Shown: piece by piece, positions 3,360 to 35,213 of the stretch
How the letters are laid out: the number at the start of each line of letters is the position of its first letter
Position numbering within the stretch: the stretch's first letter is position 1
IMG/VR virus record: IMGVR_UViG_3300048026_000397
Location: 1-35,213 of that record
Length of the DNA stretch: 35,213 nt
Origin: a virus
Reading direction: 5' to 3' (one strand)
The notes under the pieces: generated by a model
Database searches by the model: none
What the model was told of the DNA's origin: nothing
Seen by the model: the letters and a program-made list of their open reading frames with translations, nothing else
Program-made: the position numbers and the translations under genes

Positions 3360-3625
3360 TCGTGACTGAAGCAAAGTTGACTGAGATCACCGGCTACACA
3401 AAGAATCAGATTAAGCACCGCCGGTTGCAAGCGTGGGACAAAGGCACGCATTATTGGTCTGATCCTGCAAACACGACTGTCTACGATACGGAGGCAATAA
3501 CGGCATGGCAGACAAAACAGCGACCGGAATCAGAAACAAGCGCGGAAAATGCGAAATCCGTTGGTGGGAAGGCAACGTCAGGCGGTCTGAGACGTTACCC
3601 ATCGCCTATAACGCAACTGGTATAG
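3356..3625 (+). CDS. Excisionase-like directionality factor (Xis)
   Basis: 89 aa. The first 55 residues resemble phage excisionases with a winged-HTH fold: LTEITGYTKNQIKHRR, an aromatic WDKGTHYW, and TVYDTEAITAWQTK, the common 'modelled as one ID per residue' ending. Excisionases bind the attachment-site arms and steer integrase toward excision. The gene immediately precedes integrase and overlaps it by 121 bases in another frame, unusually long and consistent with translational coupling. The tail after about residue 58 lies in that overlap and is low-complexity, so the functional domain is probably only the first part. Confidence 0.72.
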   Translation: MIVTEAKLTEITGYTKNQIKHRRLQAWDKGTHYWSDPANTTVYDTEAITAWQTKQRPESETSAENAKSVGGKATSGGLRRYPSPITQLV

Positions 3626-4581
3626 CGTCAGCGCAGCGCATTCGCGCTCGCAAGATTCAAGCATTCATCGAAGGGCGCGAAGAGGCGACAGAATGGCAGC
3701 CCATGCCCACCTTCGGACAAATGGCTCAGGACAAACTGAACGAGATTAGGCACGGCAAGCCGTCGTCGCATCGCGCAATCAAAAGCCGACTGCAAATTTA
3801 CTGGATGCCTAAACTGGGCCAGCACCTGTTAACGCAGGTCAAACAAAAGCACGTCAAAGAAATCGTTAACGAAATGCGCGACCTGGGACGCTCGCCCAAG
3901 TACATTCGCGAAGTGATTAGCGCAGGAAGCAGTGTCCTGCAGATGGCGATCGAAAACGAATACATCGACCACAACCCTGCCTTAGCCGTCTCGCGCGCCT
4001 TTACGCGCAAAACAAAAACGAAGGTGCAGATAGATCCGTTCACGCAGGAAGAAATGGACGCCGTCATGCCGCTGTTAAATCACGACGACAAACTCTTCTT
4101 CGCTTTGCGTTGGTACTGCGGGCTACGGCCTGGCGAGGTGATTGCGTTGACTCGCCAAGATGTTCGAGATGGCTACATCCACGTCACGAAGTCGCGCGTC
4201 GAGGGTAACGACGATACGACAAAAACAGGGACGGAGCGCAAGGTGCCGTTGCCGCCTCAAGTTGCAGCGCTCATATCGAGCCGAGTAACTGACTTGCGAA
4301 ACGATCACTTGCTGCTCACTCAGTACGGCGAGCCATACCTAAAGCCTAGAGTCTTCAATGAGCGTTTTGTTCGCGCTTTGAAAGAAGCGGAGGTTAGGTA
4401 TCGCAACCCTTACAACGTGCGACATGGTGCTGCGTGCCGCATGCTAGCGGCAGGTATGAAACCAGGTTACTGCGCAAAAATTCTTGGTCATTCGCTGCAA
4501 ATGTTCTTCAACACATACGCGAATTGGATTGATGCGGAAGAGACGAAAGCGCAAGAAAACATCATGCGCTCACTTAAATAA
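3505..4581 (+). CDS. int: Tyrosine integrase
   Basis: 358 aa. The N-terminal region (about residues 5-50, GIRNKRGKCEIRWWEG) resembles the DUF3596/Min27-like arm-binding domain. A SAM-like core-binding domain spans about 68-165, and the catalytic domain about 177-350. Catalytic residues are visible: R208 (GLRPGE), K240 (TKTGTERK), R306 in PYNVRHGAA where Tyr303 replaces the first His of HxxR, H329 (LGHS) and the nucleophile Y338 (NTYANW). The Tyr variant is common in phage integrases. It is the last gene of the rightward operon, with excisionase upstream and the attachment site right after its stop. It should catalyse site-specific integration and excision. Confidence 0.95.
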   Translation: MADKTATGIRNKRGKCEIRWWEGNVRRSETLPIAYNATGIASAQRIRARKIQAFIEGREEATEWQPMPTFGQMAQDKLNEIRHGKPSSHRAIKSRLQIYWMPKLGQHLLTQVKQKHVKEIVNEMRDLGRSPKYIREVISAGSSVLQMAIENEYIDHNPALAVSRAFTRKTKTKVQIDPFTQEEMDAVMPLLNHDDKLFFALRWYCGLRPGEVIALTRQDVRDGYIHVTKSRVEGNDDTTKTGTERKVPLPPQVAALISSRVTDLRNDHLLLTQYGEPYLKPRVFNERFVRALKEAEVRYRNPYNVRHGAACRMLAAGMKPGYCAKILGHSLQMFFNTYANWIDAEETKAQENIMRSLK

Positions 4582-4592
4582 ACTGGTGATGG

Positions 4593-4614
4593 TGGGCCCA
4601 AACTGGGCCCAAAT
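4593..4614 (+). repeat. Arm-type integrase sites, tandem 11-bp repeat (left arm)
   Basis: Two adjacent copies of TGGGCCCAAAC/T lie 12 bases after the integrase stop (4593-4603 and 4604-4614). The same unit occurs again in the same orientation at 4795-4812, on the other side of the tRNA-like core. Flanking repeats of this kind are typical arm-type binding sites of tyrosine integrases. GGGCCC is itself palindromic, so each pair could also form a small GC hairpin. Confidence 0.6.
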
Positions 4615-4656
4615 TGATCCGTAAAAAATAAATTCCTTACCAATCAACAAGTTAAG

Positions 4657-4684
4657 TGGTCGGGGTAGAGAGATTCGAACTCTC
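4657..4684 (-). other. attP core: 3' end of a tRNA gene (probably tRNA-Pro)
   Basis: On the minus strand this reads as a T-arm (GAGAG-TTCGAAT-CTCTC, perfect 5-bp stem) followed by the acceptor strand TACCCCG, discriminator A and CCA. No anticodon arm or D-arm follows, so it is a tRNA fragment, not a tRNA gene. Phages that integrate into tRNA genes carry exactly such a 3' segment next to int, so that the host tRNA is rebuilt on insertion. A tRNA starting CGGGGTA with C1-G72 and A73 points to proline in bacteria. Identity ends near 4684, because the variable-loop side does not fit. Confidence 0.82.
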
Positions 4685-4690
4685 ACCGCT

Positions 4691-4785
4691 ACTGGCGCAG
4701 CTTGACGCAGCTGTAATTGACGCCAATAAAATCAATGACTTACAAATCCGGCTTGGCTCAGCTTGGCGTAAATTGGCGTATTTCG
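4691..4785 (+). repeat. Imperfect direct repeats in the attP arm
   Basis: Two related blocks, one starting GGCGCAGCTTGACG near 4694 and one starting GGCTCAGCTTGGCG near 4755, each followed by AATTGRCGY. They lie between the tRNA-like core and the right-hand TGGGCCC repeats. They are plausible sites for integrase, excisionase or a host bending protein. Confidence 0.45.
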
Positions 4786-4794
4786 AGCTCCAAC

Positions 4795-4812
4795 TGGGCC
4801 CAAACTGGGCCC
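4795..4812 (+). repeat. Arm-type integrase sites (right arm)
   Basis: A full TGGGCCCAAAC (4795-4805) is followed by TGGGCCC (4806-4812). The unit, spacing and orientation are the same as the left arm at 4593-4614. The pair brackets the tRNA-like core at about 45 and 110 bases. Confidence 0.6.
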
Positions 4813-26403: not shown

Positions 26404-27804
26404 TTAGGTAATTGACAGCCCTCGCCTGAGCGGTTTCTGCCAGCTGCTAGCCGCGCTCATCACGCCGCTGAGCGTCATTGCGTCGCTGGCAAATGTGAGG
26501 CACAAAGAGTCAGCCAAGTCAGGCGAGCGCAGCCCGCGCTTGCGCATCTGGTCTTTGCTTTCCAGCTGCATCTTGCCGGAGCTCGTGAACTTGTACTTGG
26601 CGCTAACGAGCTCCGCGAGCAGGTCGTCGTCCTGGGGCAGCGACACGTCACGGGCCTCGAGCCAGGCTTTCACCTTAAACCAGAGCTCAGCGCGCAGGTT
26701 GATGTAAGTCGCCTTGCTGCTCGGGCTCTCGCTGGTGTTGATGCCTACCGCCGGCAGGCCGAGCTCACGCAGGCGGTCGCACACGCCACCGCCAAGGCCA
26801 ATCGAGTCCACGTTGATCTGAACCGGCTGCGTTCGCGGCTGCTGGCTTTCATACTCGGCAACCACGGCGCCGCATAGCTGCATAAGATCCAAGCCCTGCC
26901 AGGTCTGGATGCCCATGAGCTCGCGCCCGCGGCGCTTACAAAGCGCACTGCGGTCGGAGCCAAAGCGGCTCACGTCCAAGCCCCACACGATCGGCTCGTC
27001 TTCAGTGATAACAACCTCGCGCCTTTGGGCGCTTTCAACGAGCTCGAGCGGAATCGCCGTGTCGTCGTCGCGCTGCGGAAACTCGCCAAGCACGCGCACG
27101 CGAAAGGCATTGCTCTCTTCGCCAAAGCGCGCAGCCATCTCACTCACATAATCTTGGCTCACCCTGGGCGAGTCGATGCAGCTGACCTTGCGAGTCCACC
27201 AATCACCCGCCATGCGGTGGTGGGTATCGAAGAAGAAGCCAGAGCTCCTGGTCGGGTTGCCGAGCAGAACGGTCGTTGCGTGCTCGCCCGACATCGAGCC
27301 AGCTGCGGCCTCAAAAACCGCCTCGGGGATACCGGAGGCTTCGTCGCACACCAACATCACGTTGTCTGAGTGAACGCCTTGCAGCGCTTCTGGCGTTTCT
27401 GCTCTCGATGTCCGACATGAAATAAACGCCTCGCTCGGCGCGGCCTTTAGGCTTACGCGGTCAGACTTAACTTCCAAGAGCTCTTTGATCGCCACAGGGC
27501 ACTCATTGATCCAGCGCTTGAGCTCCGCAAACAGAGCGTCGAACAGCTGCGCGCTGGTCGGCGCGGTTACGACGACTTTGACGGGATATCGCGTCAGCAA
27601 AAAGTGCAGCATCGCCCACGAGCTCGCCGTGGATTTGCCGGTGCCGTGGCCAGAGCGCACGCTGATTTTGCGCTCGCCAGATGCTATGGCATTGAGGAAT
27701 TCTTTTTGCCAGGCGTCGGGTGATTGCTTGAGCACTTGCTCAACAAAAGCGACGGGATCACTGCGAAAGCGCTTAACAAACGCCACATATGGGTTTTCAG
27801 GCAT
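26404..27804 (-). CDS. terL: Terminase large subunit (ATPase/nuclease)
   Basis: 466 aa from the ATG at 27804. A longer frame upstream runs through repeat DNA and is not plausible coding. Residues 3-40 (NPYVAFVKRFRSDPVAFVEQ and following) match Sf6/HK97-type large terminases. Walker A is SGHGTGKS (51-58), Walker B VMLVCDEASG with DE at 154-155, and the C-terminal RNase-H-like nuclease has GLDVSRFGSDRSA and an Asp in NVDSIGLGGG. It pumps DNA into the prohead and cuts it. It is separated from the small subunit by about 2.4 kb of small genes, and a phased repeat array lies just before it. Confidence 0.93.
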   Translation of the reverse strand: MPENPYVAFVKRFRSDPVAFVEQVLKQSPDAWQKEFLNAIASGERKISVRSGHGTGKSTASSWAMLHFLLTRYPVKVVVTAPTSAQLFDALFAELKRWINECPVAIKELLEVKSDRVSLKAAPSEAFISCRTSRAETPEALQGVHSDNVMLVCDEASGIPEAVFEAAAGSMSGEHATTVLLGNPTRSSGFFFDTHHRMAGDWWTRKVSCIDSPRVSQDYVSEMAARFGEESNAFRVRVLGEFPQRDDDTAIPLELVESAQRREVVITEDEPIVWGLDVSRFGSDRSALCKRRGRELMGIQTWQGLDLMQLCGAVVAEYESQQPRTQPVQINVDSIGLGGGVCDRLRELGLPAVGINTSESPSSKATYINLRAELWFKVKAWLEARDVSLPQDDDLLAELVSAKYKFTSSGKMQLESKDQMRKRGLRSPDLADSLCLTFASDAMTLSGVMSAASSWQKPLRRGLSIT

Positions 27805-27825
27805 GACACATTGTACCGCTTTATG

Positions 27826-27930
27826 GTCTGAGCAAAGGTCTGAGCAGAAATGAGCAGCGTTCCGAGCAGAAATGGGACGCTCCGAGCAGGTCAGGGACTG
27901 ACCAGGGACTGACCAGGGATAGGTCAGGGA
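27826..27930. repeat. Helically phased short repeats upstream of terL (candidate pac/cos or operator)
   Basis: Five GAGCA units start at 27830, 27842, 27852, 27864 and 27884 (steps 12, 10, 12, 20), followed by four CAGGGA units at 27903, 27914 and 27925 preceded by 27892, exactly 11 bases apart. The 130-base gap is otherwise empty of genes. Regular one-turn spacing suggests a multimeric DNA-binding protein on one face of the helix; the small terminase is an obvious candidate. Confidence 0.6.
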
Positions 27931-27934
27931 TTCG

Positions 27935-28294
27935 TTAGTCGTATATGTGGCGCGGGTTGAGCTCGTCAGTTGGATTGTGGAACGGGTCGTCAATGACTTG
28001 GCCGCTAGAGTCAAAGGTGATTTCTTGTTCGATTAAATCTCTGACCATTTGATCTATCTCGTCGATGGGGCTTCCGTCTACATAGTCGCGTATCCAGTCA
28101 GTGACGCGAACCAGGTCGATGAACTTGGGCGACGGATCGTCATAGCGAAATTTCTTAACGTCAGGCGGGCTGACGTGGTAACTCTCGTATGCAGCGCCAA
28201 GCTCGAAGTAAATGCTAATCGTGCCCCTGCGCCACATCTCAGAGTCTTCGAGCTCTACTTCGACCAATAAATCGTCAAACTTTTTACTTACCAT
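27935..28294 (-). CDS. Small acidic protein, unknown function
   Basis: 119 aa. It begins MVSKKFDDLLVEVELEDSEM, then GTISIYFELGAAYESYHVSP, and a C-terminal acidic region IDEIDQMVRDLIEQEITFD. It is the last small gene before the terminase array, on the same strand as terL. It does not resemble a family I can name. Strongly acidic character could mean DNA mimicry, which is speculation. Confidence 0.55.
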   Translation of the reverse strand: MVSKKFDDLLVEVELEDSEMWRRGTISIYFELGAAYESYHVSPPDVKKFRYDDPSPKFIDLVRVTDWIRDYVDGSPIDEIDQMVRDLIEQEITFDSSGQVIDDPFHNPTDELNPRHIYD

Positions 28295-28315
28295 GCCTGC
28301 AGCCTATCACTTTGC

Positions 28316-28331
28316 GCCCGCGCTAGCGGGC
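28316..28331. repeat. GC hairpin after small gene (6-bp stem, GCTA loop)
   Basis: GCCCGC-GCTA-GCGGGC. It lies downstream of the small gene ending at 28359 on the minus strand and has no T-run, so it is not a standard terminator. Stem length and loop size equal those of the hairpins on the neighbouring stop codons. Confidence 0.5.
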
Positions 28332-28352
28332 TGATTCGGTGAGATTGCCTCC

Positions 28353-28368
28353 GGCGGCTTACGCGGCT
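28353..28368 (-). repeat. Stop-codon hairpin copy 3 (imperfect)
   Basis: On the minus strand AGCCGC-GTAA-GCCGCC overlaps the TAA of the 75-aa gene. The stem has mismatches, but the position over the stop codon, the GTAA loop and the following GGAGG match the better copies at 28601 and 28879. Confidence 0.5.
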
Positions 28369-28586
28369 CCTTGATTTGCGAGGTCAATCACCTCGTCCCA
28401 AAACTCCGCAGAAGGGCCGACGTACCACGAGACCACGAACGACTCGGCTTGACTTGAGTTCCAAGTCGTACCATTCGGTGCGTCGACGCAGATATGCTTG
28501 TCGGTCGTGGTGATGCTCGTGACATCCCAATCGACCTCACCGCCGTGCTGGTTGATAACACTTAATGCTTGCTTGCGTGTTGCCAT
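28359..28586 (-). CDS. Small protein ending in Ala-Ala, unknown function
   Basis: 75 aa, ATG at 28586. MATRKQALSVINQHGGEVDW, then TDKHICVDAPNGTTWNSSQA and VSWYVGPSAEFWDEVIDLAN. It is one of three consecutive small genes whose stop codon sits in the loop of a GC hairpin. I recall similar short proteins in phages and plasmids without function. The Shine-Dalgarno sequence is weak (CAGGGGAC upstream). Probably a host-takeover or accessory factor by position. Confidence 0.55.
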   Translation of the reverse strand: MATRKQALSVINQHGGEVDWDVTSITTTDKHICVDAPNGTTWNSSQAESFVVSWYVGPSAEFWDEVIDLANQGAA

Positions 28587-28600
28587 GTCGTTGTCCCCTG

Positions 28601-28616
28601 GGCCGCTTACGCGGCC
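28601..28616 (-). repeat. Stop-codon hairpin copy 2
   Basis: On the minus strand GGCCGC-GTAA-GCGGCC, a perfect 6-bp stem with a GNRA-type GTAA loop containing the stop codon TAA of the 85-aa gene. Confidence 0.7.
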
Positions 28617-28864
28617 TGCTTGTATTGCTTGATATTGTTAGGCACCCAGACCTGAGTGCGTGGCAGAACAGCGCCATTGCGCTGATAGCGAACAGGCCGG
28701 TCGGCCCACTCGATCCAGCACAGGGTGTGAGTAGCGCCAAGCTCGCTGTGGTTGCTGTCGAGCACGTCGATAATGACGGCCTCTTCGCCGTTCATGTCAG
28801 CGCCAGCGACTAGGTGGCTTTCCACCTGAGTCACAAAAATGATGTTGCCTACCGTCAGTTCCAT
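28607..28864 (-). CDS. Small protein, unknown function
   Basis: 85 aa from the ATG at 28864, which is preceded by a strong GGAGGAG ribosome binding site; an upstream in-frame ATG at 28924 would overlap the previous gene and is unlikely. Beta-rich: ELTVGNIIFVTQVESHLVAG, then EEAVIIDVLDSNHSE and HTLCWIEWADRPVRYQ. It ends KQAA. It resembles small SH3-like or OB-like phage proteins but cannot be assigned. It is second in a run of four small genes leading to terL. Confidence 0.6.
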   Translation of the reverse strand: MELTVGNIIFVTQVESHLVAGADMNGEEAVIIDVLDSNHSELGATHTLCWIEWADRPVRYQRNGAVLPRTQVWVPNNIKQYKQAA

Positions 28865-28878
28865 GTCGTTTCTCCTCC

Positions 28879-28894
28879 GGCGGCTTACGCCGCC
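28879..28894 (-). repeat. Stop-codon hairpin copy 1
   Basis: On the minus strand GGCGGC-GTAA-GCCGCC, a perfect stem with the stop codon TAA in the loop, immediately followed by the GGAGGAG ribosome binding site of the next gene. This placement could couple or modulate termination and reinitiation. Confidence 0.7.
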
Positions 28895-29232
28895 TTGTTT
28901 ATGTTGACTGTCTCGAAGCCGCAATTTGCGACCAAGTAAAACTGACCGTCCATTTCAAGCACGTCCCCGACCGATACGCTGCTCATTTGCGCGTGTTTTT
29001 GAACTAGCTCTGGCTTTTCCCAAAGGTTTGTCAGTCGAAAAACCTCGCCCAAGTCCGTAGCGTCTACCGTGGCAACATGGTCATAAGCGTGGAACCATTG
29101 AGTCGGGTCAATTTTGCCCATGCCCTTGTCTGCAAAAGCCATAGTCTTTTCTGAAGCGCCCCATCCCTCTTTGTTCAAAAGATCAATGTCTTCTTGCGTG
29201 AGGTGAAACTGGTAGATTTTTACTGTCATCAT
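28885..29232 (-). CDS. YodL-like domain protein
   Basis: 115 aa; two ATGs are adjacent (29232 and 29229), and the second has the better spacing to GGAGAACG. QFHLTQEDIDLLNKEGWGAS, then YDHVATVDATDLGEVFRLTN and SSVSVGDVLEMDGQFYLVAN followed by CGFETV. The C-terminal part matches the YodL-type domain found in phages, plasmids and polyvalent proteins; N-terminal part resembles a family often seen on conjugative plasmids. Function unknown, anti-host role suspected. First gene of the leftward late transcription unit, directly below the palindromic operator. Confidence 0.66.
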   Translation of the reverse strand: MMTVKIYQFHLTQEDIDLLNKEGWGASEKTMAFADKGMGKIDPTQWFHAYDHVATVDATDLGEVFRLTNLWEKPELVQKHAQMSSVSVGDVLEMDGQFYLVANCGFETVNINKAA

Positions 29233-29255
29233 CGTTCTCCGTTGTTATGGCCCTA

Positions 29256-29283
29256 ATTATACCGATATTGTTCTATCTGTCAC
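29256..29283 (-). promoter_or_regulatory. Leftward promoter for the small-gene/late operon
   Basis: On the minus strand a perfect -10 TATAAT (29261-29256) lies 16 bases downstream of GTGACA (29283-29278), which is part of the palindromic operator. Repressor binding would block this promoter directly. Confidence 0.65.
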
Positions 29284-29296
29284 CTTTTTGGTGACA
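29278..29296. promoter_or_regulatory. Perfect palindromic operator
   Basis: TGTCACC-TTTTT-GGTGACA, perfect 7-bp half-sites. The same half-site occurs between the repressor and Cro-like genes (33638-33717) and, degenerate, upstream of the early operon (34559). It overlaps the -35 elements of both divergent promoters here. Confidence 0.78.
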
Positions 29297-29317
29297 ATAA
29301 ATAGAAATAAATATGAG
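29288..29317 (+). promoter_or_regulatory. Rightward promoter for the small basic-protein genes
   Basis: TTGGTG (29288-29293), 18-base spacer, TATGAG (29312-29317). The arrangement is the same as at 34569-34598. The -35 lies within the operator. A GGAG Shine-Dalgarno at 29347 precedes the ATG at 29356. Confidence 0.5.
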
Positions 29318-29355
29318 AAAATTAGAGCTCACCAATCACCACATATGGAGCTCCC

Positions 29356-29487
29356 ATGTACGGATCACACTCAAAAACCATGAAAGCCATGAAAGGCAAG
29401 CGATCGGCAACCAAAGAAGCGCGCAACGCACGCATGGCTGCCGGCACGAACATGCCAGTCGTTAAGCCACCCTACCCACCACGCTAG
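29356..29487 (+). CDS. Tiny basic protein 1
   Basis: 43 aa, ATG at 29356 with GGAG five bases upstream. Lys/Arg/Met-rich: MYGSHSKTMKAMKGKRSATK, then EARNARMAAG and a Pro-rich end VVKPPYPPR. It is the first of three basic genes on the plus strand in an otherwise leftward region, under the same palindromic operator as the late operon. It may bind nucleic acid or be a virion-packaged cofactor. I recall short MK-rich proteins of this kind in marine phages; no function is established. Confidence 0.55.
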   Translation: MYGSHSKTMKAMKGKRSATKEARNARMAAGTNMPVVKPPYPPR

Positions 29488-29489
29488 CC

Positions 29490-29744
29490 GTGGCCACACC
29501 ACGCAAGGGCAAAGCCCGCGTCAAAGTAACGGCCAGCGGGAAGAAAGTGTCCTACGGCCAGGCGGGCAAGGCCAAAGACGGCTCGCGGCGCGTGCAGCCT
29601 GCGAGCAAGAAAGGCGACGCCTACTGCGCCAGGTCTGCCGGCCAGATGAAGAAGCACCCCAAGGCCGCCAAGAACCCAAACAGCCCGCTGCGGCTTTCGC
29701 GAAAGCGCTGGAAGTGCGCGGGCACGAAATCTAGGAGGAAGTGA
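29490..29744 (+). CDS. Small basic Cys-containing protein (DUF6321/DUF5872-like)
   Basis: 84 aa from a GTG start two bases after the preceding stop. The sequence KGKARVKVTASGKKVSYGQA, AKDGSRRVQPASKKGDAYCA, then NPNSPLRLSRKRWKCAGTKS is a pattern seen in many marine and cyanophage genomes as a small basic protein of unknown function. Cys at the two ends of the second half (YCARS and KWKCAG-like) could bind metal. It overlaps the next ATG (GTGATG). Possibly a DNA-associated virion protein; not shown. Confidence 0.7.
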   Translation: MATPRKGKARVKVTASGKKVSYGQAGKAKDGSRRVQPASKKGDAYCARSAGQMKKHPKAAKNPNSPLRLSRKRWKCAGTKSRRK

Positions 29745-29920
29745 TGCCACGAAAAGGACTGTACGCAAACATCGCCGCGAAGCGGCGGCGGATAAAGGCG
29801 CAGAAAGCCGCGGGTAAAAAGCCCGAAAAGATGCGCAAGCCAGGCACCAAAGGTGCGCCTACTGCCAAAGCCTTTCGCGCTGCGGCGAAGACTGCGAAGA
29901 AGGGCACTCGAAGAAAATAA
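29744..29920 (+). CDS. Small basic protein (conserved marine-phage type)
   Basis: 58 aa. MPRKGLYANIAAKRRRIKAQ, then EKMRKPGTKGAPTAKAFRAA and a Lys/Arg end. The core GLYANIAAKRRRIKA ... KMRKPGTKGAPTA is strongly conserved in phages infecting marine bacteria. The ATG overlaps the preceding stop, so the last two genes are coupled. Pure basic composition suggests DNA or RNA binding, unproven. The stop codon lies within a hairpin with an A/T-rich stem. Confidence 0.7.
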   Translation: MPRKGLYANIAAKRRRIKAQKAAGKKPEKMRKPGTKGAPTAKAFRAAAKTAKKGTRRK

Positions 29921-29934
29921 TTTTTTTTCGGTGC
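29904..29934 (+). terminator. Hairpin over the stop codon, possible terminator
   Basis: GCAC ... GTGC with an inner stem CGAAGAAAA / TTTTTTTCG around a TAAT loop and one bulged T. The run of eight T lies in the 3' arm rather than after it, so this is not a textbook intrinsic terminator. It is the only strong hairpin at the end of the plus-strand unit, and the T-run may still destabilise elongation. Confidence 0.45.
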
Positions 29935-29960
29935 GCGGAAGTCTAGTCCTCCACCCCCCA

Positions 29961-30206
29961 CCCCCCTGCTGGTTCAAGGGGGGGTCGGCCATTGTTCCAC
30001 GGCCAAATCACCCTGTTTTGCGCATAAGACCCATTATGTTAAATTGGCCGATCGCGTAAGTCATTGATTTCATTGGCCTAACAGTTTTTCCGCATGTTTT
30101 ATGCCTCAAATATGCGCAAAACGCCCCTTAACCCACCTGTTTTTACCAATTGTTCCACGGCCATTTCCTGCGCGCAAAGCCGGCTGCGCGAGCCAGTGTC
30201 TGCGAG
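29961..30206. repeat. Non-coding segment with nested direct and inverted repeats
   Basis: No gene is seen from 29921 to 30206. A 15-base direct repeat ATTGTTCCACGGCCA lies at 29991-30005 and 30149-30163. Between them a perfect 12-base inverted repeat, GTTTTGCGCATA (30015-30026) and TATGCGCAAAAC (30111-30122), spans an AT-rich middle. A poly-C/poly-G hairpin (CCCCCC ... GGGGGGG) lies just before, near 29965-29987. It separates the end of the basic-protein genes from terS, where transcription converges. Candidate cos/pac or replication-related site. Confidence 0.6.
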
Positions 30207-30647
30207 CTAGGTTTCGTCGCTCTCGTGCTCGATCACGCTGTCGTTTGTGAGCTCACGAAGCGCAGCTAAATGCTGATCACCCAGCGTGATATTGACCAAC
30301 GGATCGCGCTTCTCACGCCATTGGTCTGGGTTCACATTACCGGCCAACCACTTGCGCGTGTCGATGCGTAGCTTGCGAACGGTTGCGTCGTGCGCGTCCA
30401 TCGTGCCATCGGCTATCTCCAGACACTCTTCGGCCAGTGCATCAGCCCACAGCTTACGCGCCTGCATGTAGCGATCGTGCCTACCCTCGCCCTCTTCAAG
30501 CCAACGGTAGAAAGCACGCCGGCCAACCTGGCACTCCTTCATCGTGTTAACCACAGTCATGCCGCCAGCAATCATGTTGAACACGGCTTCCTCGCCACGC
30601 TCTTCCAGGCTCTTGATCTGCGCTCTGATTATTGGTCTGCCAGGCAT
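30207..30647 (-). CDS. terS: Terminase small subunit (Sf6 type)
   Basis: 146 aa. The N-terminal DNA-binding half reads AVFNMIAGGMTVVNTMKECQ then VGRRAFYRWLEEG (HTH), and the C-terminal half has YMQARKLWADALAEECLEIA, DATVRKLRIDTRKWLAGNVN and PDQWREK. This is the Sf6 gp1 pattern. The small terminase recognises the packaging site and recruits the large subunit. Here it belongs to the leftward replication operon, 2.4 kb from terL, not next to it. The start lies one base after the preceding stop. Confidence 0.85.
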   Translation of the reverse strand: MPGRPIIRAQIKSLEERGEEAVFNMIAGGMTVVNTMKECQVGRRAFYRWLEEGEGRHDRYMQARKLWADALAEECLEIADGTMDAHDATVRKLRIDTRKWLAGNVNPDQWREKRDPLVNITLGDQHLAALRELTNDSVIEHESDET

Positions 30648-30648
30648 C

Positions 30649-30918
30649 CTAGTTCGCTCCTAATTCGTTGAGTATGTCGTCGAGCTCGCTATCCCAACCA
30701 TCGGCCAAGTCTTCGAGCTCTTCACGCCGATACGCAGGCTCCGCAAGCTTGCGCTCCGGCTTCGCCTTCGGCTCTGCCGGTCGCTCGACCAGCACAGTCT
30801 CCATTGTGTTCCACCTGTCACCGCACCGCAAACACTCACGACGCCGTCTAACGCCCTCTCGCAGCTTGTCAGAGCTGATCACCCTGTTGCCGCTACTACC
30901 GCACTGCTTACACTTCAT
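30649..30918 (-). CDS. NrdR-like zinc-ribbon protein
   Basis: 89 aa. CKQCGSSGNRVISSDKLREG, then RRRRECLRCGDRWNTMETVL, matches the zinc-ribbon N-terminal module of NrdR (CxxC ... RRRREC-x2-C with RF/W-T). The ATP-cone domain of NrdR is absent; instead an acidic tail (EELEDLADGWDSELDDILNE) follows. NrdR represses ribonucleotide reductase; without the ATP cone this cannot sense nucleotides the same way. It could be an operator-binding regulator or a transcription cofactor. It lies between the endonuclease and terS. Confidence 0.7.
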   Translation of the reverse strand: MKCKQCGSSGNRVISSDKLREGVRRRRECLRCGDRWNTMETVLVERPAEPKAKPERKLAEPAYRREELEDLADGWDSELDDILNELGAN

Positions 30919-30924
30919 ATCGCC

Positions 30925-31320
30925 TCACAGCCCCTCTACGGCGCTCTCAGCGCCTAGTATGTCCATGACTTGCGCTATCGCATCACCCTTCGTCACCATA
31001 TCCGTCGTATATCGCAGCACCCGATAGCCAAGCTCGAGCGCCTTGTTGTATTTGAAGCAGTCCGATCGAAAGCCAACGCCGCTGGTATGCCGGCCCCCGC
31101 TCCACGTTCCGCCCTCCACCTCAATGACCAGGTCGCTGCCGGTGATCACAAAGTCAAACCGAAACCTTCGGCCAGGTATCAGCAGCTGCTCCCGCTCAAA
31201 GCTCACGCCCGCCGCCTGCAGCTGCGCTGCAAGCGCCTCCTCGCCCTTGCTGCCGGCTGACTGCTTCTTTGCCTTAGCCTTCGGCTTGGCTTTGGTCTTC
31301 GCCTTAACCATTTGCGCCAC
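30925..31320 (-). CDS. VSR/DUF559-like PD-(D/E)XK endonuclease
   Basis: 131 aa from GTG at 31320, or ATG at 31311. A Lys/Ala-rich N-terminal tail precedes the nuclease fold: FERELLIPGRRFRFDF-like (FEREQLLIPGRRFRFDFVI), then DLVIEVEGGTW, SGGRHT, and a helix FKYNKALELGYRVLRYT. The Asp of FDF and the Glu-x-Glu of IEVEGG fit the active site of VSR-type nucleases, which nick mismatches or process DNA in phages. Possible roles are junction resolution or DNA processing before packaging. Confidence 0.8.
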   Translation of the reverse strand: MAQMVKAKTKAKPKAKAKKQSAGSKGEEALAAQLQAAGVSFEREQLLIPGRRFRFDFVITGSDLVIEVEGGTWSGGRHTSGVGFRSDCFKYNKALELGYRVLRYTTDMVTKGDAIAQVMDILGAESAVEGL

Positions 31321-31370
31321 TCGTGCAGCACCGCTTTTGCAGCGTCGAAAAAGTGCGCCGACAGTCAGCT

Positions 31371-31462
31371 GCTGGTACTAGTAAAATAGTACCGGCGCAG
31401 CACTGATCTCGGCGCTTGCGACTGCGCCAGTCTGCGCCAGTCAGAAACAGCCCACTGGCGCA
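31371..31462. repeat. Inverted and tandem repeats downstream of primase (possible origin or operator)
   Basis: GGTACTA (31374-31380) and TAGTACC (31387-31393) form a hairpin, extendable to ten pairs with one G-T. Two exact tandem copies of CTGCGCCAGT occupy 31422-31431 and 31432-31441. ACTGGCGCA (31454-31462) is their inverted partner. Other GCGCC/GGCGC units lie between. The gap 31321-31466 contains no gene. Confidence 0.55.
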
Positions 31463-31466
31463 AACG

Positions 31467-33437
31467 CTATTCATCGATTTCGCCCTCTGTAAACCACTTG
31501 CCGACGACTACGAAGGCCCGCATTTTGCGATGCTTGTCTGGCTTATCGACTACCCTCAGAGCCCCGTTTTCGATCCAGACCTTGAGTAGTTGGCGGATCT
31601 TTGACTTGTTATAAGTGTCGTTGGTATCCAGGTTCAGCGCCTCGCCGACTGCTATCCCGACCCAATCCTTGGCTCTTGGGTTTTCCCGCCACTCGCTGCT
31701 GGCAACTCGCCGCTGCACGGCCTCAAGGTCGTTTCTGTTTAGATCCGAGAAAACGTCCGGCCACTGCCACGGCTCACTCACGCCGACGCTGTCGCCGTTC
31801 GGGAGCTCGACGCTAACCATTTGGCGCCACGTCGAGTCGCCAGAAGGCGGCGCCAGGTTGTCTTTACTGTCGCCTTCGCGGCTGTACCGCCAGAATTGGT
31901 CTTCATCGATGCCCGCATTGCGCGCCTCTTCTGCCGTCATGCGCTGCAGGCGTCTAACGTGCCTGGCTGCGTCTACTAGGGCACTGGCGCCGCGTGCATC
32001 AGAGACAGTCGCTTCCTGCATGCCGTTGCCCTTTCGGACGTGATGCACGAGCTCGATGCTGCAATTAGCGTCGTTCGCGACCTGCGCCCAGCGTTTGACC
32101 ACCATGTCGATGGCCTTGTTATCGTTCTCGCTGAGGTGGTGCGAGCTCACGAACGGGTCAACAATGACGACGTCAACGTTCATGGCCTTTATATGGTGTG
32201 TCAGTGCGTCCGCAGCTGGCGTGAGCACGTTGGCCCCGCCGGCCTGCTCGGCAATGATCAGCGGCTCATCTCGCCCGCTGTTGACCAGCAGTCTGTCGCC
32301 AAGGTCGTCTTGCGTGATGCCGTAGTGCTGTGCGATGCCCGCAATCCGGCGCTGGAGCTCTTCCAGCGGGTCTTCCAGGTTCCACACCCACACTCGGCGC
32401 TTTGGCGTCTCGATGCCCATGATCGAGCGGCCCGTAGCCATCGCCACGGCTTCTGCCAGCGTGATCGCCGTTTTGCCAGTGCCGCCTGGCGCTACAGTGA
32501 CGGATAGAAATTTTCTAATAAAGTGCCGGCCATAAACCCACTCCCGCGGCGGTATCTTGCTGGCGTCGCCGAGCACGAAGGGCTTTGGCTCGAGCGCCAC
32601 TTTCTGCGCTTCAGCGGCTTCGGCTTGCGCCTCGCGCGCTTCGCGCTGCTCAGCCGCGCTGTTGCGGGCGTGCGTCTGCGCGATGCTATTGACCGTGCGT
32701 TCTACTTCGTCGCGATCGAGCGGCGGGCTGTTATAGGCGTTCCACTGCAGCACCTGCTCGAGCACGGCGTCGGAGCTCAGCCCCTGGCGAAACAGCCGGC
32801 CAGCTTCGGCAGCTGCTTGGTGATTGCGGTTGCCCTCGGCTTCGCCGGCCTCTTTCACATTGAAAGACAAGCCAGTATCCACCGGCCCAGGCGCCGGTTC
32901 GTTGAAAGACTTGATCTTGCGCAGGTCTGCGGCGTTTAACTTCGGCAGGCTGCCCCACCACACGTCAACGTCAGGATCGTCGTCGCGTGTATAAACGTGG
33001 CCGCTTTCGTGGATGCTCCCTGGCGCAATCACACAGCCGCCTTGGCCTCTCAGGTCAATGCGCAGGTCTGGGTTCACGCCGTTGCGCACTGGGTAGTTTG
33101 GATCGACTTGGTAATAGAAGTGTTTGCCCTTGCTCGTCGTGACGCGCCGCGGCGTGTAGGTCAGGTTCTCTCGAACGAATTTGACGGCGTCATCGCTGTC
33201 CGCATCGACCACGACGATCTGCTTGCCAGTGATGATGGCGTAGTTGTTGTTGGCGTAGTTGGCGCTGTTTAGCCAGTATTCCTGCTGCCCTTCTGGCGGT
33301 TCTGCAGTCTGCCAGGGCTGCCACTTAACGATTGGTCGCTTCTCAACAGGGTGCGCAGGCACGACAGTGAAGCCCTCTTCTGCGAGATCACGCGCCGCCT
33401 CTCTTACCCCTTCGCGTGTATACACAGGCTCAGCCAT
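31467..33437 (-). CDS. Primase-polymerase / helicase (Prim-Pol plus RepA-like ATPase)
   Basis: 656 aa from the ATG at 33437, preferred over an upstream frame because it coincides with the end of the Cro-like gene. Prim-Pol domain about residues 5-165: IVVVDADSDDA (D78, D80) and GKHFYYQ (H106), DLRGQGGCVIAPG. ATPase domain: Walker A PGGTGKT (317-323), then VVIVDPFVSS and IELVHHVRK, as in RepA/AAA_25-type hexameric helicases. It would prime and unwind at the phage origin, so the phage replicates with its own initiator. First large gene of the leftward operon. Eight-base overlap with the HTH gene. Confidence 0.9.
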   Translation of the reverse strand: MAEPVYTREGVREAARDLAEEGFTVVPAHPVEKRPIVKWQPWQTAEPPEGQQEYWLNSANYANNNYAIITGKQIVVVDADSDDAVKFVRENLTYTPRRVTTSKGKHFYYQVDPNYPVRNGVNPDLRIDLRGQGGCVIAPGSIHESGHVYTRDDDPDVDVWWGSLPKLNAADLRKIKSFNEPAPGPVDTGLSFNVKEAGEAEGNRNHQAAAEAGRLFRQGLSSDAVLEQVLQWNAYNSPPLDRDEVERTVNSIAQTHARNSAAEQREAREAQAEAAEAQKVALEPKPFVLGDASKIPPREWVYGRHFIRKFLSVTVAPGGTGKTAITLAEAVAMATGRSIMGIETPKRRVWVWNLEDPLEELQRRIAGIAQHYGITQDDLGDRLLVNSGRDEPLIIAEQAGGANVLTPAADALTHHIKAMNVDVVIVDPFVSSHHLSENDNKAIDMVVKRWAQVANDANCSIELVHHVRKGNGMQEATVSDARGASALVDAARHVRRLQRMTAEEARNAGIDEDQFWRYSREGDSKDNLAPPSGDSTWRQMVSVELPNGDSVGVSEPWQWPDVFSDLNRNDLEAVQRRVASSEWRENPRAKDWVGIAVGEALNLDTNDTYNKSKIRQLLKVWIENGALRVVDKPDKHRKMRAFVVVGKWFTEGEIDE

Positions 33438-33627
33438 TGGCCGCGTTGCTAAAAAGGTCTGGCCTGAGCTCTTCGCGCTTGATGCCCGTGATGGCCTCAA
33501 CTTGCACGACGCGCTCTGCAGGAATCTTGTCTGCCCACTTCCACTTGTAAACTGACCCGCGCGAAATGTTTAGTTGGCGCGCGAGCTCGGCGATTTGGAT
33601 GTCTTCCCAGATGTTTGTATTACTCAT
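33430..33627 (-). CDS. Cro/YdaS-like HTH protein
   Basis: 65 aa. IAELARQLNISRGSVYKWKW is a helix-turn-helix; the following KIPAERVVQVEAITGIKREELRPDLF is the YdaS/Cro-like C-terminal pattern. It faces the cI-like repressor across an operator-rich intergenic region, so it should be the lytic regulator. The ATG at 33627 lies just after the predicted -10 TACATT. It overlaps the primase start by eight bases, thus leading the replication operon. Confidence 0.85.
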   Translation of the reverse strand: MSNTNIWEDIQIAELARQLNISRGSVYKWKWADKIPAERVVQVEAITGIKREELRPDLFSNAANG

Positions 33628-33634
33628 CGCTGCG

Positions 33635-33663
33635 AATGTACACCTTTAAGGTGACAGTCACAA
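33635..33663 (-). promoter_or_regulatory. Leftward promoter for Cro-like/replication operon
   Basis: On the minus strand TTGTGA (33663-33658), a 17-base spacer and TACATT (33640-33635). An operator occupies the spacer. The start codon follows eight bases downstream, so the leader is very short. Confidence 0.65.
33638..33656. promoter_or_regulatory. Operator O1 of the genetic switch
   Basis: CACC-TTTAA-GGTGACA: right half-site perfect, left half-site partial (CACC). It lies between the -35 and -10 of the leftward promoter. Confidence 0.7.
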
Positions 33664-33676
33664 CATACAAACACCA

Positions 33677-33695
33677 TGTCACCGAAAGTGTTGCT
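33677..33695. promoter_or_regulatory. Operator O2 of the genetic switch (one good half-site)
   Basis: TGTCACC (33677-33683) followed by a poor partner half. It lies between the two divergent promoters. Confidence 0.5.
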
Positions 33696-33719
33696 CATTG
33701 TCACCCTTTGCGATACATT
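33691..33719 (+). promoter_or_regulatory. Rightward repressor promoter
   Basis: TTGCTC (33691-33696), 17-base spacer, TACATT (33714-33719). The spacer contains operator O3. The same -10 hexamer is used by the opposing promoter. AAGGAGAC precedes the repressor ATG. Confidence 0.55.
33699..33717. promoter_or_regulatory. Operator O3 of the genetic switch
   Basis: TGTCACC-CTTTG-CGATACA: perfect left half-site and a right half keeping G-x-x-ACA. It lies inside the repressor promoter, suited to autorepression. Confidence 0.6.
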
Positions 33720-33750
33720 CGGGTGACGACATTACTAAGGAGACAAACTC

Positions 33751-34089
33751 ATGAAGGACATCGCCGACCGCATACGCGATCTCCGGAATGCACGCGAATT
33801 AAGCCTGCGTCAACTGGCTGACCTGTCCGGAATAAATCACAACGTCATTCACAAATGGGAGACTAGGAAGGCAACACCAAACCGATCGAACGTCGTTAAA
33901 CTCGCCGATCTGTTCAACGTGAAGCCTGCCTGGTTGCTGTTTGGGCGTGACGACAACGCAACGGGCCTGAATGTGCAAGACACCTTTGCCGCACTGTCTA
34001 TCCCCTCACAACAACAAGTAGACGCGCTCATCAACCATCTATTGGACATAGAGAGCGCTAGGGAATCAGCACATGGAAAAGACTCATAA
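33751..34089 (+). CDS. cI-like XRE repressor without peptidase domain
   Basis: 112 aa. The XRE helix-turn-helix covers about residues 5-62: RIRDLRNARELSLRQLADLS, GINHNVIHKWETRKATPNRS, VVKLADLFNVKPAWLLFG. The remaining ~45 residues are a short helical tail for dimerisation; no LexA/S24 Ser-Lys peptidase region is present. It is the likely lysogeny repressor and binds the TGTCACC operators upstream. A strong AAGGAG precedes the ATG. The next gene starts inside its last codons. Confidence 0.88.
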   Translation: MKDIADRIRDLRNARELSLRQLADLSGINHNVIHKWETRKATPNRSNVVKLADLFNVKPAWLLFGRDDNATGLNVQDTFAALSIPSQQQVDALINHLLDIESARESAHGKDS

Positions 34090-34543
34090 CGAGCGACACG
34101 AAATTTGGAACACCTACGCAAACAGGGCGCTAGTCGAGGCAACAAATCACTTTTGCTCTGGACATGGGCTGAAGTTTTTTTCTGTCCCGTTCGACAGTAA
34201 GTCAACGCAGCCCATAACTTTATTGAAAGAACTGTTGCAGCCCTGCCCTTGCCCCTCGGGCGAATGCAGCACGCATCGGGCATTTCGCATTGTTGCGGCA
34301 AAAATGGCGCACTTCTACAGCGGCTACTCGGCAGAGACGCTGGTGCTGTACAAAGACAGCGCGTTTGTGTGCGTGCGAATCCAAGATGAGCTCATGTACG
34401 TTGGCGTTCATCCTTGGGATCTGCCTGCAGTTAAGGCTTACGCAAGAGAAAACGACCTGTTCTACGACATGCGCAACGTCGAATTGCTCTACCTGAAAGG
34501 CAAATATAACGACTTCGACAACGTGCTCGTCGCATCGTTCTGA
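34073..34543 (+). CDS. Unknown protein co-transcribed with the repressor (lysogenic-conversion candidate)
   Basis: 156 aa, ATG at 34073 overlapping the repressor end by 17 bases, with AGGGA upstream. It has a Cys-rich segment PCPCPSGECSTH near residues 57-68, then AFRIVAAKMAHFYSGYSAET, LVLYKDSAFVCVRIQDELMY, VGVHPWDLPAVKAYAREND and a C-terminal ELLYLKGKYNDFDNVL. No recognised family; not an obvious toxin, nuclease or second regulator. Expression from the repressor promoter means it would be made in lysogens, so a superinfection exclusion, host-fitness or repressor-modulating role is plausible. Confidence 0.6.
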   Translation: MEKTHNERHEIWNTYANRALVEATNHFCSGHGLKFFSVPFDSKSTQPITLLKELLQPCPCPSGECSTHRAFRIVAAKMAHFYSGYSAETLVLYKDSAFVCVRIQDELMYVGVHPWDLPAVKAYARENDLFYDMRNVELLYLKGKYNDFDNVLVASF

Positions 34544-34558
34544 ATTAATTGTTCTAGC

Positions 34559-34577
34559 TGTCTCCTTTTTGTTGACA
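34559..34577. promoter_or_regulatory. Degenerate operator of the early operon
   Basis: TGTCTCC-TTTTT-GTTGACA. Same 7-5-7 geometry and same T5 centre as the perfect operator at 29278; the preceding bases (ATTGTTCTA then CTGTC) also match that site. It overlaps the -35 region of the early promoter. Confidence 0.7.
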
Positions 34578-34598
34578 GCGCATTAGGCCATCTATAGT
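34569..34598 (+). promoter_or_regulatory. Early rightward promoter
   Basis: TTGTTG (34569-34574), or overlapping TTGACA (34572-34577), with -10 TATAGT (34593-34598). The spacer is 18 or 15 bases, as at 29288-29317. Expected to drive the recombination-integration operon that continues across the window ends. Confidence 0.6.
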
Positions 34599-34600
34599 GT

Positions 34601-34624
34601 TCTCCTTGTCAACGAACAAGGAGA
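34601..34624 (+). promoter_or_regulatory. Hairpin sequestering the ribosome binding site
   Basis: TCTCCTTGT-CAACGA-ACAAGGAGA, a perfect 9-bp stem with a 6-base loop. Its 3' arm contains AAGGAG, the Shine-Dalgarno of the ATG at 34631. It begins a few bases after the predicted transcription start. Confidence 0.65.
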
Positions 34625-34630
34625 CACTCG

Positions 34631-35044
34631 ATGACCGACGAAACGACACGCAACGGAAACAACGAGCCAACGATTGAATCGCTAGTCGCCAGGCTGGCAG
34701 AGCTCAAAAAGATTGAAGACGACGCAAAGCTCGAACGAGTAAAGCACGAAGCCGAGATCCTGCCCTTTCTCGACCAAGTCCAAGAAGGCAGCAAAACCAC
34801 CACCCTCGCCAACGGCACGAAAGTCACAGTAAAAAATGGCTTCAACCGCCGGCTGGATCAAGAAGGCTGGAAGCGCATCAAGCACAAGATCCCGACAAAC
34901 CTGCACCCAGTTCAGCTGAAAGAAGTGCTGAGCGACACGCAAATGCGTTACCTGCAGAACAACGAGCCAGACTTCTACAAAGAAATGTCTGCCGCCGTGA
35001 CGACCTCCCCCGCGAAACCATACATCACAATAAAGGAGGCGTAA
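34631..35044 (+). CDS. First early gene, conserved phage protein of unknown function (DUF7173-like?)
   Basis: 137 aa. A Glu/Lys helix (VARLAELKKIEDDAKLERVK, about residues 19-38) is followed by LPFLDQVQEGSKTTTLANGT, TVKNGFNRRLDQEGWKRIK and a C-terminal PAKPYITIKEA. I recall similar proteins directly upstream of recombination genes in other phages, but the function is unknown to me. Its ribosome binding site lies in a hairpin. It is immediately upstream of the Sak4-like ATPase, with a strong AAGGAGG for that next gene spanning its final codons. Confidence 0.62.
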   Translation: MTDETTRNGNNEPTIESLVARLAELKKIEDDAKLERVKHEAEILPFLDQVQEGSKTTTLANGTKVTVKNGFNRRLDQEGWKRIKHKIPTNLHPVQLKEVLSDTQMRYLQNNEPDFYKEMSAAVTTSPAKPYITIKEA

Positions 35045-35046
35045 TC

Positions 35047-35213
35047 ATGGCCTTTGATCTCAAGTCGGTATCGCCGACACAATCTGCGCGCGCGCTGTTT
35101 GGGCTCGTCTTCGGCACCTCTGGTGTCGGCAAGACGACCTTTGCCGCCGACGCGCCCGACGCTGTTTTCATCCCAACGGAAGACGGCGCCGGCAGTCTCA
35201 CGCTGCAGGCATT
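35047..35213 (+). CDS. Sak4-like AAA ATPase, N-terminal part
   Basis: First 55 codons of the ATPase whose C-terminal part is at 1-568. Walker A is GTSGVGKTT (about residues 24-32), preceded by ALFGLVF; then FAADAPDAVFIPTEDGAGSL, as in AAA_24 proteins. AAGGAGG precedes the ATG. The reading frame leaves two bases at the window edge, which with base 1 complete a codon. Joined directly, the protein would be about 244 aa. Confidence 0.85.
   Translation, partial: MAFDLKSVSPTQSARALFGLVFGTSGVGKTTFAADAPDAVFIPTEDGAGSLTLQA

Follow-up and report, generated by a model that had tools for sequence, protein, structure and literature searches.

A tandem-repeat array upstream of terL

The short gap in front of the large terminase gene (terL) of a temperate, integrase-bearing phage holds ten short repeats spaced by about 11 bp, and we found that among close relatives this array is present or absent, varies in copy number, and is exchanged for intrinsic terminators. 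Our preferred interpretation, which we put forward tentatively, is that the array is an optional Rho-dependent terminator, or insulator, ahead of the terL promoter. More doubtful is the combined claim that it represents a tandem-repeat transcription-control element (either a repeat-built Rho-loading site or a phased operator) that is swapped for intrinsic terminators and expands and contracts within species. The DNA analyzed, termed the window, is the whole 35,213-bp virus record IMGVR_UViG_3300048026_000397, a nearly complete circle whose two ends lie ∼21 bp from each other when placed on the relatives G002 and G006, and which carries genes for an integrase, a CI-like repressor, a primase/helicase, the small and large terminases (TerS and TerL), a portal, a scaffold, and major head proteins.

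As the initial annotation had described, the repeats lie in a gene-free gap of 130 bp. This gap (27805 to 27934) separates terL (466 aa; 26404 to 27804, minus strand, ATG at 27804) from an orphan gene, also on the minus strand. We located its five GAGCA copies (27830, 27842, 27852, 27864, and 27884; steps of 12, 10, 12, and 20) and its four CAGGGA copies (27892, 27903, 27914, and 27925; three steps of 11). These nine repeats stand, but the count was one short: a degenerate unit, TGGGA at 27873, divides the 20-base step into 9 + 11, and the mean step over the ten units is 10.67 bp. With terL encoded on the minus strand, transcription reads the motifs as TCCCT and TGCTC. Read on that strand, the whole array (27826 to 27934) runs TCCCT (four times), TGCTC, TCCCA, and TGCTC (four times), with steps of 11, 11, 11, 9, 11, 9, 12, 10, and 12, and is followed by TACAAT. 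It thus consists of a TCCCTG sub-array of four units in exact 11-bp register (27892 to 27930; CAGGGA on the plus strand) and a TGCTC sub-array of five units plus the degenerate TCCCA (27830 to 27888; GAGCA on the plus strand).

The pattern is far beyond chance. CAGGGA was the sole 6-mer with at least four in-register copies at any period from 7 to 24 in the 35-kb window, and four identical 5-mers in 11-bp register appeared in 0/20,000 shuffles of the gap (any 5-mer five times, 99/20,000). The proposal that all units sit on the same helix face held for the positions, which deviate by −1.0 to +1.5 bp from a 10.5-bp lattice (R = 0.91); as a claim of phasing beyond mere spacing it is weak, because random steps of 9 to 12 bp equal this value in ∼6% of trials. 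Across the array loci compared, the TCCCT core was held in exact 11-bp register and the spacer varied (pairwise differences per position of 0, 26, 26, 0, and 0 in the core versus 44, 59, 54, 14, 59, and 72 at the other six positions), and a decayed unit, TAGCTGTTCAG, retained its 11-bp slot. A fixed core with a variable spacer suggests that some factor recognizes the units, perhaps in the RNA. The array matched no known RNA family, and it had no DNA match in annotated phage records.

Two structural candidates were rejected: a plus-strand G-quadruplex (four GGG tracts with 8-nt loops) is not kept, some relatives being down to one TCCCT unit, and a conserved hairpin in the gap fails because the structure is no better than that of shuffles (z = −1.0). 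A perfect 10-bp inverted repeat, CGCCACATAT/ATATGTGGCG (27781 to 27790 and 27943 to 27952), flanks the array with one arm in each gene; it is probably due to chance, because it is changed in L010, L012, and L022.

The array is exchanged for intrinsic terminators among relatives

A TerL search of IMG/VR yielded 75 loci, and for comparison we took the 32 upstream regions that read best, counting the window's own. Sixteen of them carried the array and the other 16 lacked it. It comprised 3 to 12 units, gained or lost in steps of 11 or 22 bp, and was always located directly 5′ of terL; the orphan gene preceded it in every locus with a readable upstream gene. We then looked for intrinsic terminators, defined as a hairpin plus a T-run within (up to) 260 bp upstream of terL, and found none in the array-bearing loci (0/16, window gap included) versus 9/16 in the array-less loci, 59 to 76 nt before terL. 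A hand calculation gives ∼4e-4 for this exclusion under the assumption of independent loci, which these are not; nearly all array loci have one upstream gene family in common. The intrinsic terminators are not one inherited element, because they have three different stem sequences. The exchange extends to very close neighbors: four loci with TerL 99 to 100% identical (L003 to L006) had no array and an intrinsic terminator instead. Neither element was recognized by the hairpin-plus-T-run rule in seven loci. L031 to L033 and L421 are array-free and without a recognized terminator, and L034 and L036 have hairpin-like ends missed by the rule. Some relatives thus do without either element, which indicates that no terminator is strictly needed there.

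Comparison of L421 with L422 gave a view of how the array may be acquired. In L421, the terL promoter comes immediately after the orphan gene and no array intervenes; L422 shares that gene end, which is followed by a relic promoter with its start codon (GTATAATGCGGCATGACAGA), and beyond these lie the array and another promoter with its ATG. From this layout, the array and its −10 box appear to have moved as one block in front of terL. A junction pattern used to look for the array elsewhere returned 10 further contigs, all single chance matches without arrays.

The array-less relative G002 is a complete circle of 35,466 bp with a 127-bp terminal repeat, 93 to 96% identical to the window in the main shared blocks; all 35,466 bp are free of TCCCT pairs at 11-bp distance and of TGCTC pairs. 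The two genomes differ here by a cassette swap (window 27819 to 29232). Both cassettes begin after the same TATAAT leader: a promoter-like site, GTGACA-16-TATAAT (11/12; 29256 to 29283, minus strand), lies at the upstream edge, and its TATAAT end and the following leader are retained in G002. In both, small orphan genes are strung together by short linkers rich in GC, e.g., GCCGCGTAAGCGGC, and the G002 cassette ends with AGCCCGC-4-GCGGGCT-T8. In the window, the chain comprises, on the minus strand, a gene with a YodL-like match that is weak and below cut-off (28885 to 29232), two small orphan genes (28607 to 28864 and 28359 to 28586), and the acidic orphan gene next to the array (27935 to 28294; 119 aa, net charge −16), which ends with DPFHNPTDELNPR. 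According to nucleotide alignment, the orphan gene plus the array is the sole segment of >200 bp found in three array phages and absent from G002. We regard the array as an optional, fast-changing cis element, located where an exchangeable small-gene cassette has its 3′ end. Hairpin linkers rich in GC (GCCGCGTAAGCGGC and GCCCGCTAACGCGGGC) are repeated at 28312 to 28925 of the window (minus strand) and at 29016 to 29950 of G002, and may allow the exchange of gene cassettes.

The gap has features of a Rho-dependent terminator

On the terL side of the array, TACAAT (27810 to 27815, minus strand), located 5 nt before the ATG, is a candidate −10 box of the terL promoter. TAnAAT is maintained in all near relatives, with changes in the surrounding sequence. 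The terL message is probably translated without a leader, since a ribosome site would not fit before the ATG. A conserved palindrome, TGCGGTAAAA-N11-TTTTACCGCA, overlaps the −35 region of this promoter in most relatives (L003 to L006, L013, L017, L018, L021 to L026, and L031 to L036) and is likely a late-promoter operator; it is missing from the array-only group. Because the gap is preceded by a promoter-like site at a distance of 1.3 kb and closely followed by a −10 box, a terminator between the two is expected.

The RhoTermPredict rule for rut sites calls for 78 nt with C/G > 1 and a C every 11 to 13 nt (PMC6407284), and Rut sites of B. subtilis are described as having no stable structure and short U/C-rich anchors (PMC12350095). 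A candidate rut window of 78 nt (27904 to 27981, minus strand) has a C/G ratio of 2.82, a C every 11 to 13 nt, and a predicted MFE of −2.1; among ∼451 sense-strand windows of the genome it ranked first with the C-spacing rule and second without it. The C/G ratio was 1.4 to 1.8 over the remaining gap, and the whole 129-nt gap folded at −34.4 (z = −1.0), with weak hairpins predicted in the TGCTC half. The same C spacing was found in 10/13 other array-bearing loci. We extended the ranking to non-overlapping sense-strand 78-nt windows of related genomes: the gap ranked 1 to 3 for C/G in 8/9 distinct array genomes (C/G of 2.5 to 4.0, MFE of −0.2 to −7.6) and 4 to 27 in six array-less relatives, where it was strongly folded (MFE of −22 to −37) because of the terminator hairpins.

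We propose that transcription of the cassette, started at the promoter-like site (29283 to 29256), would be stopped before terL and the late operon. The minus-strand RNA would carry UCCCU or UGCUC every ∼11 nt, with C in excess of G; its nearly unstructured TCCCT half would load Rho, and the TGCTC half, in which short hairpins are possible, would form with the terL promoter region a zone of pause and release. The position of the array, its confinement to this slot, its exchange for intrinsic terminators, its C/G bias, and its periodicity are observed; that Rho binds, that transcription ends there, and what the TGCTC half does are inferred from the sequence. The gap resembles known Rho-dependent terminators (PMC6407284) in its C>G RNA of ∼80 nt with a C every 11 to 13 nt, and in lying after a stop codon and ahead of a promoter; little structure is predicted for its best 78-nt window, although the gap as a whole folds. 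Rut sites described so far are degenerate, however, whereas the putative one in the window consists of 11-bp units in tandem, with a core that is fixed and a copy number that varies. Several observations argue against the Rho reading: some relatives have neither array nor recognized terminator, the loci are not independent, an invariant TCCCT core in exact 11-bp register is not needed by Rho, the gap of one array genome (G014, locus L019) ranked only 7th and was structured, and the opposite strand of the window has stretches of higher C/G.

If a repeat-built Rho site is indeed present, it would offer phages a simple route to make, lose, and tune a transcription stop via copy number, and near-identical phages with 0 to 12 units would provide a natural series for relating Rho loading to the number and spacing of C anchors.

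Operator and minisatellite as alternatives

The fixed core in strict 11-bp register exceeds the known needs of Rho, so a sequence-specific protein stays a fair rival. In line with the other half of the initial proposal, a new binding array, the repeats would then form a phased DNA-binding site, or operator. A phage or host protein would bind them cooperatively and either regulate the terL/late promoter or block read-through; we consider this somewhat unlikely. It would account for a TCCCT core that keeps its register as the other six positions vary, with the decayed unit still in its slot, and for unit positions that fit a 10.5-bp lattice (R of about 0.87 to 0.93), although this phase is only marginally above that of random 9- to 12-bp steps (P of about 0.06). 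The last unit begins about 19 bp upstream of the −10 box, and the array-only group lacks the TGCGGTAAAA..TTTTACCGCA palindrome found at the −35 region in relatives. On the other hand, subgroups differ by 34 to 35 bp (∼3.3 turns) in how far the array lies from the −10 box, which argues against a fixed promoter geometry. No candidate regulator was found: the sole co-travelling gene is the orphan gene (27935 to 28294), whose product is very acidic (−16) and has no DNA-binding fold match. We rejected it as the array binder given this charge and the lack of any structural match, its AlphaFold model (pLDDT of 88) having no hit with an E value of ≤0.001 in PDB or BFVD. A binder could be a conserved phage protein or a host protein. 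In the parC site of plasmid R1, ParR binds 11-bp repeats arranged as two sets of five. Its architecture recalls the ten units at about 11 bp described here, but the window is a temperate phage with an integrase, and no gene of the ParR type (ribbon-helix-helix) and no ParM gene was found beside the array.

Slightly less probable still is that the array is a selectively neutral minisatellite that grew by tandem duplication, through recombination or slippage, where cassettes are frequently exchanged. This possibility keeps some weight because relatives lack the array, and evidently live without it, and because its copy number is unstable: TCCCT shifts between 3 and 6 copies among neighbors with 97 to 99% identical terL, and L007 shows a 22-bp loss relative to L008. 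The relic promoter and start codon beside the array of L422, compared with array-free L421, likewise fit a recombination scar. Runs of four TCCCT were found in 77 virome contigs at a 10-bp period, 97 at 11 bp, and at least 120 at 12 bp, i.e., about equally often, so such arrays arise readily; the 97 contigs had looked striking, and we abandoned the idea of a widespread 11-bp TCCCT class in view of the 10- and 12-bp controls. Outside the window's phage group, arrays had no preferred orientation to genes. Against neutrality, the core positions are far less variable than the spacers, and the array occurs only 5′ of terL and never together with an intrinsic terminator.

The array is very unlikely to be a packaging site

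The initial annotation had taken the repeats for a candidate packaging site, to which the small terminase would bind. In favor of such a start (pac or cos), they adjoin terL and the phage encodes an Sf6-type TerS with an HTH (PF20901; 30207 to 30647, minus strand). We regard this as very improbable. TerS of G002 and of G001 is 100% identical to that of the window, and the complete G002 has no array anywhere; absence from near-identical phages with an identical TerS argues strongly against the array as the packaging start. The array, which ends at 27934, is also neither in nor next to terS, being 2.4 kb away, whereas the pac sites of P22 (PMC9611059) and SPP1 (PMC4737164) lie in or at the terS gene, and near-complete contigs begin at unrelated places, none of them at the array. 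The pac of SPP1/SF6, with its boxA/B/C direct repeats, is similar in having direct repeats near terminase genes, but SPP1 pac spans the start of terS (PMC4737164). The supporting argument, that a small terminase ring wrapping DNA needs phased repeats, is weak too: for SF6, the repeats made little difference to how the DNA-binding domain bound (PMC4737164), and in HK97 the DNA is threaded through the TerS channel, not wrapped around it (PMC11331095). Repeats next to terL should hence be read as packaging sites with caution; here, the comparison with a near-identical relative speaks strongly against it.

Least probable of all are replication-origin iterons bound by a phage initiator: arrays with a TCCCT/AGGGA core and an 11-bp period do occur inside initiator-like helix-turn-helix genes of unrelated phages (L101, L118, L126, and L184), but those are coding, with AGGGA on the coding strand, whereas the window's array is intergenic and dispensable, the replication region (29233 to 35213) is 93% identical in array-less G002, and 11 bp is not a favored period in the virome. 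The AGGGA repeats of L101, L118, L126, L184, and others are themselves candidate origin iterons.

A candidate attachment site

A search for the host by comparing TerL with bacterial genomes gave a distant Planctomycetaceae MAG as its sole match. Just after the integrase gene (3505 to 4581), we noted two pairs of 11-bp TGGGCCCAAAC repeats (4593 to 4812) that flank TCGGGGTAGAGAGATTCGAACTCTCACC (∼4664 to 4692), which resembles the reverse complement of a tRNA 3′ end. This region is a candidate attP with arm sites, from which the host could be named.
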